From contig NC_132880.1 of the NCBI RefSeq assembly GCF_030463535.1, positions 36,302,842 to 36,366,841 of the forward strand: a DNA stretch of 64,000 nucleotides, in the 5' to 3' direction. A program made the position numbers and the translations under genes. This DNA is from Salminus brasiliensis (lineage: Eukaryota > Chordata > Actinopteri > Characiformes > Bryconidae). Of this stretch, positions 1,954 through 64,000 are shown in pieces. The notes beneath the pieces were generated by a model that was not told the DNA's origin, ran no database searches, and saw only the letters and a list, made by a program, of their open reading frames with translations. The number at the start of each line of letters is the position of its first letter. Position 1 is the stretch's first letter.

Positions 1954-10566
<8,613 letters not shown>

Positions 10567-20559: not shown

Positions 20560-20868
20560 CCAAATAATTCCATCGGTGTCCAAAACAGAATATGTTTGTC
20601 TTGTCTGGTCTATATATTATAGCTATAGCCTGGGTGTCCGAACGGCCGAGTCGCTCGCTGTCTTCAAGACCCACCTCTTCAGAGAATACTTGGACGATTA
20701 GAGTACTGTGGTCACCTTATTGACCTGTGTTTAGTAATGTCTAATCTTAAAGGTATCTTTGAACTATTAGTCTATTCTAACTAGATAAGGTTTTTTGGGT
20801 AAATAGCAAAGCACTTTGTAAGTCGCTCTGAATAAGAGCATCTGCTAAATGCCATAAATGTAAATGTG
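20560..20868 (+). mobile_element. L2-like LINE 3' tail
   Basis: It encodes VRTAESLAVFKTHLFREYL, the common C-terminal phrase of fish L2-type reverse transcriptases. A 3' UTR ends in 'aagtcgctctgaataagagc' and 'tctgctaaatgcc'. The inverted, longer copy is at 34778-35300. Confidence 0.7.
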
Positions 20869-26661: not shown

Positions 26662-29600
26662 TTAGCTGCCGAGATGCTTCGTCTGCCTTCCCTGGGCAAT
26701 AAGTTTCCCATTAGCTTTGTTTGTCAGATCCACAGAAGCAAAAGCCAGGGTTTTCCCTTGTTTTAACACCTGGGCTGTGATCAAGATGTCATCTCCAATT
26801 TTGGCTGCATTCATATACCTGTCAACACCAGAGAGGCACTGTTATTTATGAAGAGCAGGAGTTCAGTATATACACTCACTGAGCAGTTCATTAGAAAGGC
26901 CTGTTTACCTACTCATTCATGCTATTATTTAATTAGCTAATCGTGTAGCCGTGCAGTGCACAAAAACATACAAATGTGGGCCACTAGCTCCAGGTATTGC
27001 TCAGTGATTTTAAACTGGGATGATCAGGCCACACGGGTTGGTTTGAGTATCTTTAGAAGTGCTGATCTCATGAGCAGAATTTAGCACAATTTCTCTTTCC
27101 TAGAAAATCTGCCAGTTAACAAAATCAGGTGCACTTGGGACAAGAAAAGCCCAAAACTGCAGGAACACTGAGTGGTAGTTCTGTGGACAGAAATAAGGTC
27201 AACAGCACAGCTAGACAGTCTCGAGCTTACCGAGAGGCTACAGTACCTCGGATAACCACTCTATACAACTGTGGCGAGCAGAAAAGCTTCTTATTATTGT
27301 ACATGTTAACTCTTAAGGTGGATGGGCTACAACAGCAGAAGACCACGACAGGCTCCTCTTCAGTCAGCCAAGAACATAAAGCTGAAGGTGCAGTAGGCAC
27401 AGGCTTACCGGACAGCTGTCTGATGAGCTAAATCTCTATTTTTGCTGCGGCACACACATAGTTGGGTTGCTGTTTGGCAGCAACAGCTTGAATCCATGGG
27501 CTATTAATACCAAGCACTCGTCACTTGAATGCGACAGCCTAGGTCAGGACCATGTGCATCCTCTTATGACCACAATTTACCCAATGACTACAAACCGGAT
27601 TCCAAAAAAGTTGGGACACTAAACAAATTGTGAATAAAAACTGAATGCAATAATGTGGAGATGGCAAATGTTAATATTTTATTCATAATAGAACATAGAT
27701 GACAGATCAAAAGTTTAATCTGAGTAAATGTAACATTTTAAAGGAGAAATATGTTGATTCAAAATTTCATGGTGTCAACAAATCCCAAAAAAGTTGGGAC
27801 AAGGCCATTTTTACCACTGTGTGGCATCCCCCCTTCTTCTTACAACACTCAACAGACGTCTGGGTACAGAGGAGACCAGTTTCTCAAGTTTAGAAATAGG
27901 AATGCTCTCCCATTCATGTCTAATACAGGCCTCTAACTGTTCAATCGTCTTGGGCCTTCTTTGTCGCACCTTCCTCTTTATGATGCGCCAAATGTTCTCT
28001 ATAGGTGAAAGATCTGGACTGCAGGCTGGCCATTTCAGTACCCGGATCCTTCTCCTACGTAGCCATGATGTTGTGATTGCTGCAGAATGTGGTCTGGCAT
28101 TATCTTGTTGAAAAATGCAGGGTCTTCCCTGAAAGAGATGACGTCTAGATGGGAGCATATGTTGTTCTAGAACCTGAACATAGTTCTCTGCATTAATGGT
28201 GCCTTTCCAGACATGCAAGCTGCCCATGCCACAAACACTCATGCAACCCCATACCATCAGTGATGCAGGCTTCTGAACGGAGCGTTGATAACAACTTGGG
28301 TTATCCTTGTCCTCTCTGGTCCGGATGACATGGCGTCCCAGTGTTCCATAAAGAACTTCAAATCATGACTCATCTGACCACAGAACAGTCTTCCATTTTG
28401 CCACACTGTTGGTGTGGCGCAACAGATAACACCACTACCTGCCAGTGTGCTACCACACCACGTGGAATACTGGGGTTCGATTCCCGGTCTGGGTGACTAT
28501 GCTGCGCTACACCAATAAGAGTCCTTGGGCAAGACTCCTAACACTACACTGACCCACCTCTGTAATACAAGGAACCTTGTAAGTCGCTCTGGATAAGAGC
28601 GTCAGCTAAATGCCGTAAATGTAAATGTAAAAGACCCCTGGCCCAGTGCAAATGTCTGAGCTTGTGGAGCTTGCTTAGAAATGGCTTCCTCTTTGCACTG
28701 TAGAGTTTCAGCTGGCAACGGCAGATGGCACGGTGGATTGTGTTCACTGAAGATGATTTCTGAAAGTATTCCTGAGCCCATTCTGTTATTTCCTTGACAG
28801 TGGCGTTCCTGTTTGAGGTGCAGTGACGTTTAAGGGCCCGGAGATCACGAGCATCCAGTAGAGTTTTACGGCCCTGACCCTTACGCACAGCGATTGTTCC
28901 AGATTCTCTGAATCTTTTGATGATGTTAAGCACGGTTGATGATGATAACTTAAAAGTCTTTGCTATTTTACGCTGGGTAACACCATTCTGGTATTGCTGC
29001 ACTATCTTTCTCGCAACAATGGTGGAATTGGTGATCCTCTTACCATCTTGGCTTCAGAGAGACACTGACACTCTGAGAAGCTCTTTTTATACCCAATCAT
29101 GTTGTCAATTGACCTAATTAGTGTTAATTGGTCTTCCAGCTGTTCGTTATATGCTCAATTTCCAGCCACTTATTGCTACTTGTCCCAACTTTTTTGGGAT
29201 TTGTTGACGCCATGAAATTTTGAATCAACATATTTCTCCTTTAAAATGTTACATTTACTCAGATGAAACTTTTGATCTGTCATCTATGTTCTATTACAAA
29301 TAAAATATTGACATTTGACATCTCCACATCATTGCATTCAGTTTTTATTCACAATTTGTTTAGTGTCCCAACTTTTTTAGAATCCGGTTTGTACTTCAAG
29401 CATGATAATGTGCCATGGCAAAAGTTGAACGGGACATTAAGGATCAGTGGTCTTCCCAGACTGAATTCAATTCATTTGAACACCTTTGGGATGTGGTAGA
29501 ATGGGAGATTCACAGCATGAAAGAAATACCTGCTAATCTCCTGAGGAATTTATTGAGGAATTGTGTGTTGCAATCATATCCACATGGACTTACCTCCTAA

Positions 29601-30953
29601 TCCCTAATACAGTATTAGAATAGTATTCCTGATAAACTGCTAGAAACACGCTGATGTGTATGTATACGAAATATGTTCACTGGCAAAGCCTTACGTGATG
29701 TTCATGTCAACGCTGACTCCTGGAGCACCTCTCTCAGTGTACATGATCGCAGTGGTGGAAATGGTATCAATCAGAGTAGCGGTCATGCCTCCGTGCAGCG
29801 TTCCTAGTCGGTTTGTGTGCTCTTCTCCCACTTTCATCTCACAGACCACCTTACCAGGACTAGCTGATAAGAGTTCAACCTGTGGGGACATTAGTGATCA
29901 GGTACATTTTTCCATACGTACATACAGTATACAGTGCAACATCACAATTTTCTTTCTCTTCTTTACCACATTACAAAATGACAAGAAATGACATAAACCT
30001 AAATATCTAAATAATATATAATATATAAATAAATGAGGATAAACCTTATTTAATCATTTCAGCTAAAATTGGGGCTGGTACTCAAAACAGCTTCCCCATA
30101 ATTTATTTTTGTATAGATTAAAAGTCACACTGTGTTCTAAACCACATTAATTTGTGCAAAACAAAGGAAAATCTGGATCTGAGTGGGTTGAGGGATGTTT
30201 TGGGTGTGTATTTGTGAAGATGAGACTGGTGACAGCTAAACTAAAAAAAAAAAACTAAAAACTAAAAAAACAAAACTAAAAACCTTAAGACAGCACAGAT
30301 GTCTTGGCTACTTGAATGTATCCAGGTAAAATGATAAATTGTGTTCATTAGATTTTTTGCTCAACTATTTCTTGAATAGCTCATTTGTCAAAACATCATT
30401 TACATTTTAAAAGTCATTTGGTAAAAGTCACACTAAAACAAATGCACATGCTGTGCTGCCAGAAAACCAAATAAACAAAACTAATGATGTATTTGTAAGA
30501 AAACATGCAGCTGACCAGTGCTGACCATATCCACAGTATGCTCAGGCATGAATGATTAAATTAAGTACTGTTAGGTTCCCACTCCTAAAACAAATAACCA
30601 ACATCACCAATAAAAGTCTTTTCTCAGCTTAAAGGAATACAGGTTTCTCCTCATTCCTGTAAGAGTATTCTCAATAATAATAATAATAAAAAAATAACAT
30701 TAAAATAAATCAGATAAAGATATACACACACGATCACACATATCTGCGAGCCCTATTTAGTTTTGCTTTTTGTTATCTATTTTATTTTTTTATTTTTTCG
30801 AAAGCCAAAGACTTAGAAGAGTAAAAACACAATGATGGTTCGGGCTCGTCCTCAAGGTTGCTCACTCACCTTGTTTAATACGCGATCAAATCCAGGACTG
30901 TCGATTATGACCCTCATTACCTGTTTCAGCGCATTTAAAGTCAGCGAGGCCAT
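26662..30953 (-). CDS. acot13: acot13, acyl-CoA thioesterase 13
   Basis: Minus-strand exons, 5' to 3': 30953-30870, 29879-29695, 26818-26662. They total 426 nt, 141 residues. The ATG begins MASLTLNALKQVM. Residues 29-141 form one hotdog domain of the PaaI/4HBT family, with the HGGMTATLID signature. N51, G58, D66 and S84 align with human N50, G57, D65 and S83, which are implicated in catalysis. The C-terminus GRQTKHLGS resembles human. Known role: hydrolysis of medium and long acyl-CoAs to free fatty acid and CoA as a homotetramer, associated with mitochondria and partnered with PCTP. It converges with c6orf62. Intron 2 (26819-29694) is about 97 percent transposon. Confidence 0.96.
27811..29050 (-). 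pseudogene. Tc1-like transposase, interrupted
   Basis: The N-terminal helix-turn-helix (QRKIAKTFKLSSSTVLNII) lies at 28640-29002. The C-terminal catalytic part is at 27811-28257, with QDNARPH and SPIENIW; exactly 34 residues separate the D and the E, giving the DD34E pattern. A SINE insertion at 28409-28632 splits the gene. A stop codon (28373-28375) follows the WSDES motif and the frame changes before the C-terminal part, so it cannot make an intact enzyme. Confidence 0.88.
28409..28632 (+). mobile_element. tRNA-derived SINE, family 2, inserted in the Tc1 transposase
   Basis: It begins 'ggtgtggcgcaacagataac' and has a B box 'gggttcgattcccgg'. It ends with 'aagtcgctctggataagagc', 'gtcagctaaatgcc' and 'gtaaatgtaaatg'. 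That 3' tail is the one at the end of the L2-like LINE copies at 20560-20868 and 34778-35300, a typical SINE/LINE shared tail. Confidence 0.85.
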
Positions 30954-34777: not shown

Positions 34778-35300
34778 ATTTACATTTATGGCATTTAGGA
34801 GACGCTCTTATCCAGAGCGACTTACAAAGTGTTTTGCTATTTACCCAAGAAAAGCCTTAGCTAGTCAGAATAGACTAATAGTTCAAAGATACCTCTAAGC
34901 TTAGACATTGCTAAACACAATACAATGGTGACTCTAATCGTCCAAGTATTCTCTGAAGAGGTGGGTCTTCAGTCTGTGTTTGAAGACAGCGAGCGACTCT
35001 GCCGCTCGGACACCCAGGGGAAGCTGGTTCCACCACTTTGGTGCAGGACAGAAAAAAGTCTGGACGTTTGTCTTCCGCAGATTTTGAGGGATGGCGGGTC
35101 GAGCCGAGCCGTACTTGAAGATCGAAGGGCTCTTGGTGCGGATCGGCTTTTGACCATTGCCATCAAGTACGGAGGGGCTGGTCCGTTCTTGGCTTTGTAG
35201 GCCAGCGTCGGGGTTTTGAATCTGATGTGGGAAGCAGCTACAGGAAGCCAGTGAAGGGAACGCAGCAGTGGAGTGACATGGCTGAATTTAGGGAGCAATA
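34778..35300 (-). mobile_element. L2-like LINE 3' fragment
   Basis: On the minus strand it encodes the RT C-terminal phrases LHWLPVAASHIRFKT, LAYKAKNGPAPPYL and LFSVLHQSGG, with several frame breaks. It then ends in the shared tail 'aagtcgctctggataagagc'/'ctaaatgccataaatgta'. A degraded relative follows at 36060-36290. Confidence 0.8.
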
Positions 35301-44079: not shown

Positions 44080-44630
44080 TGCATCTTGTCTCTCCCTGTC
44101 TCTCTCTCTCTCTCTCTCTCTCCTACTCTCCTGCCTCTGCCCCTGTCCCTCTAACTTTCTGTCTCTTTTTGTCTCTTCCTTTCTCACGCTGCCGTCCTTC
44201 AATCTGTCTTGTCTCTTCTCTCTGTCTCCCTCTTCTTTTAACTTTTACATGCTGTAAGATTGGTTATAATGAAGTGCTGTTGAAAGTCTCTCTCACTCTC
44301 TCCTTCTCTCTCTCTTTGCTCTCTCACTTCCCTGTCTTTCTGTCTCTTTTCTCTTGTTCTCTCTCTCCCTCTCTTCCTCTTGCTTCCCCATCTTTTTGTT
44401 TCTTCTCTCTCTTTCTCCCCCCTCTTTCTCTCTTGCTTCCCCATATCTCAGGACATATTATATAAAGGACATATATGTCCTTTATCTCTATTTCTTTCTC
44501 CCTTCCTCTCTCATTTCTGTCTTTACATTCATTGTATCTCTCTTCTTCTCTTCTTTATTTATTGTTCATTTTAAAATGATTATTGGTTTATGTGCTGCTC
44601 AGTTGGTGGGATGGCCTGCAGTGACTTTAA

Positions 44631-44678
<48 letters not shown>

Positions 44679-44838
44679 AATTAATCATTGGTTTTTGTTT
44701 AATTTTCTTTATTTATTGTTAATTTTAAAATTCTTGTTGGTTTATGTGCTGCTTGATGGCTGGGATGGCCTGCAGTGACTTTTGCATGATGTAGCGCCCT
44801 TGAAGGGGTCAAATAAAGTGTTGTTAAAAGTCAAAAAG

Positions 44839-44871
<33 letters not shown>

Positions 44872-45393
44872 CTCTCTCTCTCTTTCTCTCTCACTCTTTA
44901 GCTCTCTGTCTCTCTTTTTTCCTCGCTGACTCCAGTATTTCTATCCATCTTTTCTTTCTGTCGCTACCTCTCTCAATCCCTGCCTTTCCATCTCTTCTCT
45001 TTCTCTCTCACTCCCCTGTCTATCTCTCTCTTCCTGATTCTATCTCTTTTTCTTTCTCGCTCTTTTTTTCTATCACTATCTCACTTCCTCCCCCCCTCTT
45101 GCCGCCTCTCTCTTTCTCTCTCCCACTCTATCTTTCTGTCTCTCTCTCTCTCTGTTATCTGTCATGCCTCTTTTTCTAGCAGTTTCTATCACACTTCCTC
45201 TCCCTCCCTTCACTTCTCAATCTTTTATCCGGTCTCTCTTTCCTTCTCTCACTCACTTTCCTCCTTATAGCTGTCTGTCTCTCTCTCTGACTTTCTCTTT
45301 TTTCTGTCTCTCTCACGCCTTTATCTGTCCCTCTCTCTTTTTCTATCCATATTTATCTCTCTTCCTGTCTCTACCCCTTTTCTGCCTGTATGT

Positions 45394-45485
<92 letters not shown>

Positions 45486-63000: not shown

Positions 63001-64000
63001 TAAATACAGTAGGTCTCTTCTACATCGTTGTGTGTCAGTGCAGAGGGATATCTCATGTCGTTCTTATACATCTCCAGTATGTCACCTTTCCCAGCAGAAT
63101 AACCGGATGCAAATTTGACATCACAGGGGGCTCTGGACTCAAAACCCAATGCTGTACAGATGTCACATATCTGTGACATAACAAAAGCAGTTTTAGGTTG
63201 ACATCAAGCTCCAACGTTAGACAGACGTTGACTTAGACCATGACTTAAAACCAACAACATTATCAACATATCAATATCAACATTTACATTTAAGGCATTT
63301 AGCAGACGCTCTTATCCAGAGCAACTTCCAAAAGTGCTCAGGTTGTAAGATGTTATCAACATCTAACAACCTTAGAATTTCACGTTTTGTGGACGTTAAG
63401 ATTATAAAGTTTAGCAGCCGTTGGGCTATAGACACCATGCCTTTCAGCTCACTTTTGATGTAACGTGGCATTTGACGTCTAGAAGACGTTGGATTTTGGT
63501 TACTCAACCAACCCTACATACATTTATAGCAACATCTATAGACGTTTTTTTTTTCATTATACAAGATCTGCTTTTTGTCTCCCCAAATAAAGCGACGTTG
63601 ATCTTTAGAGTGATGTTATTAAGACGTTAGTCCTTTGGGGACACTTTACACAAGGATGAGTTTAGGACGAGGCTATTCTACCTTACATACCTACACATTA
63701 AAGTCACTCACTTTCAAGCTGAACAATCATCTCGTATGAACCTTATCTAAACAAACGACGATGATCAACACAAGGCGTGTCACTTTCTCCGAGAAATTTA
63801 ATCAAGGGCATTTTCTTCATCAACCTCAGACTCTCAAAATCCACTCAAATATGAATTGTTGTCTCACAAGTAGGCTTATAGTCCAACAAGACCACACGGT
63901 GGCGAACGAGTAAAAGGAACGCACTGAGGTGGAACGCGCCCACCCTGCCCCCCCTTTATGAGCCAGGTTGAACCCTGTAGGTGGAGCAGACCACTGAAGC
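63001..64000. other. Right-end intergenic region
   Basis: It holds a short LINE/SINE tail remnant at 63283-63335 ('gcagacgctcttatccagag') inside sequence with repeated ACGTTG/GACGTT motifs (63205-63625), probably a degraded MITE. The last 120 bases are CpG- and C-rich and could be the start of a promoter outside the window. No exon is supported. Confidence 0.45.

Follow-up and report, generated by a model that had tools for sequence, protein, structure and literature searches.

ZB, a DD34E/Tc1 transposon, is described as an element of 1597 bp with inverted repeats of 201 (PMC7913693). Fish genomes also offer precedents for insertions within insertions. At dmrt1bY in medaka, the retroelement Rex1 is reported within the DNA transposon Izanagi (PMC5789577), and in salmon, DNA transposons are described as nested inside each other (PMC2198921). 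The second intron of acot13 (THEM2) in Salminus brasiliensis contains a nest of three layers, in which a SINE lies within a Tc1-type transposon that in turn lies within an older, decayed element. Like the Rex1/Izanagi pair, the acot13 nest is a gene-associated case of a retroelement that interrupts the transposase of a DNA transposon in a fish; the medaka account concerns a promoter for which a regulatory role was shown (PMC5789577), whereas the acot13 nest is intronic and gives no indication of a role. Like the salmon nests, it has one DNA transposon within another, whereas those involve other families and loci, and the part of the salmon report that treats them mentions no SINE layer (PMC2198921).

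In the window (the whole 64,000-nucleotide stretch of DNA that was analyzed), acot13 is encoded on the minus strand. The coding part of exon 1 (30870-30953), exon 2 (29695-29879), and the coding part of exon 3 with its stop (26662-26818) join into a single open frame. Exon 3 has a 4HBT Pfam match, and the peptide joined from exons 2 and 3 aligns with solved THEM2 chains over 113 residues (E = 1.1e-61). Both introns are of the GT-AG type: intron 1 occupies 29880-30869 (990 nt), and intron 2, which starts with GTAAGG and finishes with ACAG, occupies 26819-29694 (2876 nt). The nest takes up 2798 of these 2876 nt (97.3%), leaving non-transposon intron sequence of 48 nt on the acceptor side (26819-26866) and 30 nt on the donor side (29665-29694), both likewise read on the minus strand. 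These counts agree with a preliminary description made from the sequence of the window, which had put the nest at about 97 percent of the intron with about 50 and 30 bases left at the splice sites. The nest is confirmed as real.

The middle layer spans 27591-29391 and ends in 213-nt inverted repeats (27591-27803, plus strand; 29179-29391, minus strand) with 8 mismatches between them. It is bordered on each side by a TA dinucleotide (27589-27590 and 29392-29393), the two copies of the target duplication. The left inverted repeat holds a motif of about 20 nt (18-20 nt) twice, 183 nt apart. The transposase, on the minus strand, consists of an N-terminal DNA-binding part (28633-29053), with matches to HTH_28 (E = 5e-9) and HTH_Tnp_Tc3_2 (E = 7.6e-9) that were both obtained for 28544-29053, and a catalytic part (27811-28362) matching DDE_3 (E = 1.7e-15). 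Between D2 and E lie 34 residues, the DD34E spacing. Together, the TA duplication, the terminal inverted repeats, the HTH and DDE domains, and the D2-E distance place this layer with DD34E/Tc1 elements, in agreement with the earlier assignment of 27591-29391 to Tc1. Three lesions break the transposase of the window copy: the SINE, a small deletion, and an in-frame stop.

Other copies allowed the element to be set against its own family. Among the best 40 of 546 candidates, its right half was found in at least 39 other places (with 4 further rows of inverted repeat alone), 29 of which were compared. Both ends were found in 24 other copies, a set that omits L010, L022, and L033 as outside the length filter; these copies measure 1418-1601 bp, with a TA on the left in all 24 and on the right in 22. 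The inner element is like ZB and Sleeping Beauty type elements in the length of its copies (about 1.59 kb), its 213-nt inverted repeats, its TA target, its DD34E spacing, its HTH and DDE domains, and the near-identity of its copies. The window transposase is broken, and the likeness is one of features, with no claim that the family is the same. A scan of viral contigs with the inner transposase returned no relative.

The preliminary description had proposed comparing the divergence of each layer from its family, which could be done for the inner element. On the right, where 27 other copies were compared, the window copy departs from the column majority at 11 of 759 positions; on the left, with 24 other copies, it departs at 6 of 817. 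These counts leave out L034 and L035, which are near-copies of L033; L009 is the window itself. Over both sides, the divergence from the majority is about 1.1%, a figure biased low by a comparison set composed of the best matches to the window. On this sequence comparison, the family looks young. L033, L034, and L035 (G000:C1:26201190, 26211847, and 26222507) share their 3′ flank and lie about 10.66 kb apart, which suggests that the DNA around them may be a tandem triplication.

The innermost layer is a SINE on the plus strand with limits of about 28408-28632, of which the final five bases, TAAAA, perhaps belong to the target. Its 3′ end matches the UnaL2 element of Rfam (RF00436) at 28566-28619, scoring 57.4 bits against a cut-off of 55, and its tail is a TGTAAA-type repeat. 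UnaL2 is described as ending in TGTAA repeats (PMC3747384), and the 3′ hairpin and repeat tail together mark the insertion as an UnaL2-tailed SINE. It differs from the SINEs described there in being a few bases short at the 5′ end and in occupying a site that lost target bases and shows no duplication. As to a tRNA-derived head with pol III boxes, a GGTTCGATTCC box was recognized by eye; ARAGORN called no tRNA, and Rfam gave no tRNA match. Other SINE copies occur in at least 39 places (with 2 additional short pieces) among the best 40 of 3063 candidates. In all seven that were examined, GTGG precedes TTGGTG, and the nest copy therefore lacks a few bases at its 5′ end. One copy elsewhere (L007, G000:C17:8881414-8881710) has oppositely oriented pieces of the same SINE on both sides. 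The window also contains three further UnaL2-type 3′ ends, at 20805-20858, 34785-34838, and 63289-63342.

The SINE sits between the HTH and catalytic parts of the inner transposase, and 28 nt separate its edge from the motif of the first catalytic aspartate. The same site is uninterrupted in 29 of the 29 other inner copies compared (of at least 39 other places), which confirms the SINE as an insertion that splits the transposase, as originally proposed. Measured against these empty sites, the window copy is short of 6 target bases, a number that rises to 11 when the shared TAAAA is assigned to the tail of the SINE, and comparison with the 29 copies reveals no target duplication. Target-primed insertion is reported to be able to delete target sequence instead of duplicating it (PMC2881922). 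Among the seven other SINE copies examined, a plausible duplication of 7-8 nt is present in two (L002 and L008), the remaining five being ambiguous or without one; because so few show a plausible duplication, its absence from the nest is no proof of an unusual insertion route.

The relative age of the two transposons follows from their arrangement. The inner element splits the outer one and is flanked by a TA duplication, so the outer element is the older, and this order is secure. The preliminary description had proposed a full insertion order, of which the outer-before-inner step stands on containment, whereas the timing of the SINE insertion is not proved. The SINE could already have been resident in the inner element elsewhere, with the composite jumping into the intron as a unit after its inverted repeats were recognized by a transposase supplied in trans. 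We regard this course as unlikely. Both 213-nt inverted repeats are present, and in 14 of the 29 other inner copies examined, a frame of 245-400 residues includes the D2 motif, which makes mobilization in trans conceivable. Against a composite jump, none of the 29 other inner copies compared carries the SINE, and the flanks of the seven other SINE loci examined gave no match to the inner element. Both observations are still compatible with such a jump, since a single cut-and-paste move would leave no second copy behind. Arrival of the SINE at its present site, within an inner element already in the intron, is the reading that we prefer.

The outermost layer consists of a left arm (26867-27588) and a right arm (29394-29664), both on the plus strand and both riddled with stops and frame changes. 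Its bounds near 26867 and 29664 were placed from the imperfect pairing of the two ends as inverted repeats and are uncertain by a few bases, the ends being TA-rich. Across the inner element, the host text reads gac-TA-cttcaag, exactly the rejoining that had been claimed once the inner element and one TA are removed. As an alternative, the arms could be unrelated insertions or decayed host intron, in which case the inner element would have entered an intron that already exceeded 78 nt. The Pfam evidence for both arms falls below the cut-off, as this alternative would have it: the left arm has an HTH_Tnp_Tc3_2 match at E 0.02-0.033, under the curated cut-off, and no DDE domain match was obtained for the right-arm pieces. 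Nor were relatives of the outer element seen among the loci retrieved for comparison, other than the window's own, or in viral contigs, and tblastn of inner-type transposases against it produced no convincing match. Three observations nevertheless argue for one element. The two ends pair as imperfect inverted repeats with a score of 39.5, which was reached by 2 of 2000 single-base shuffles; the left arm, even if below the cut-off, shows Tc3_2-type HTH similarity; and a D2-like motif, on the same strand, opens the right arm directly past the break. Both arms presumably resemble a common fish Tc1, in the right order. Unrelated insertions or host intron are unlikely as the source of the arms, and a single Tc1 element, weakly supported as to family, is the probable identity of the outer layer. 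Its matching ends, weak HTH similarity, and transposase-like motifs on one strand are like those of Tc1-like fish elements, from which it differs in being heavily decayed. The older Tc1 at about 26867-29664 named in the preliminary description stands as a decayed layer that the inner element split, and its Tc1 identity is weakly supported by the sub-cut-off HTH match and the matching ends.

Removal of the nest would leave 48 + 30 = 78 nt of intron. Short introns of teleosts are reported to peak at about 76 bp, a value taken as the likely vertebrate minimum, and first introns are more often long (PMC9438311). At 78 nt, intron 2 of acot13 would be typical of minimal introns, and the 990-nt intron 1 fits the tendency of first introns to be long. 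A special explanation for splicing, prompted by the question in the preliminary description of how an intron splices with so little other sequence, was rejected, since about 80 nt of other sequence poses no puzzle when 78 nt lies near the teleost peak and the usual minimal intron size.

With good confidence, we reconstruct the history of the intron as a minimal intron that received an outer Tc1-like element, a young inner Tc1-type element, and a SINE, the resulting nest being most likely passive. Intron 2 would probably have begun at roughly 78 nt, and a probable Tc1-like element would have entered it and then decayed. Later, a DD34E Tc1-type element of much younger age would have been cut and pasted into a TA inside the old element, duplicating the TA. 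The SINE, with its UnaL2-like tail, would then have been copied by target-primed reverse transcription into the transposase of the inner element, slightly upstream of its first catalytic aspartate, with 6-11 target bases lost in place of a duplication. With the splice sites contained in the 48 and 30 host bases, the nest is most likely removed with the intron as passive sequence, and we infer that splicing of the exons would proceed normally. We give about an even chance to a stronger formulation, in which a minimized teleost intron of about 78 nt moved from the short to the long class solely by nested transposition that can be read at the level of single bases, the last step being a SINE insertion of the deletion type, which disrupted a transposon from a still-young family and thereby contributed to fixing the long size.

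The layers are each of a known kind, and the nest is an ordinary, well-preserved one with precedents in fish, leaving general views unchanged. A limited literature search, run without acot13 as a term, found nothing on this intron, and six short transposon strings searched in papers gave no match. The locus is of value as a clean example of how a minimal fish intron can lengthen while its splice signals stay as they were. Given the low divergence of the inner element, earlier forms of the intron may survive in near relatives or other individuals, by which the order of insertions could be tested. Elsewhere in the window, at 3043-3131, 9330-9429, and 44287-45485, lie perfect arrays of AT and TG and a CT-rich stretch of 1.2 kb that contains many tandem repeats.
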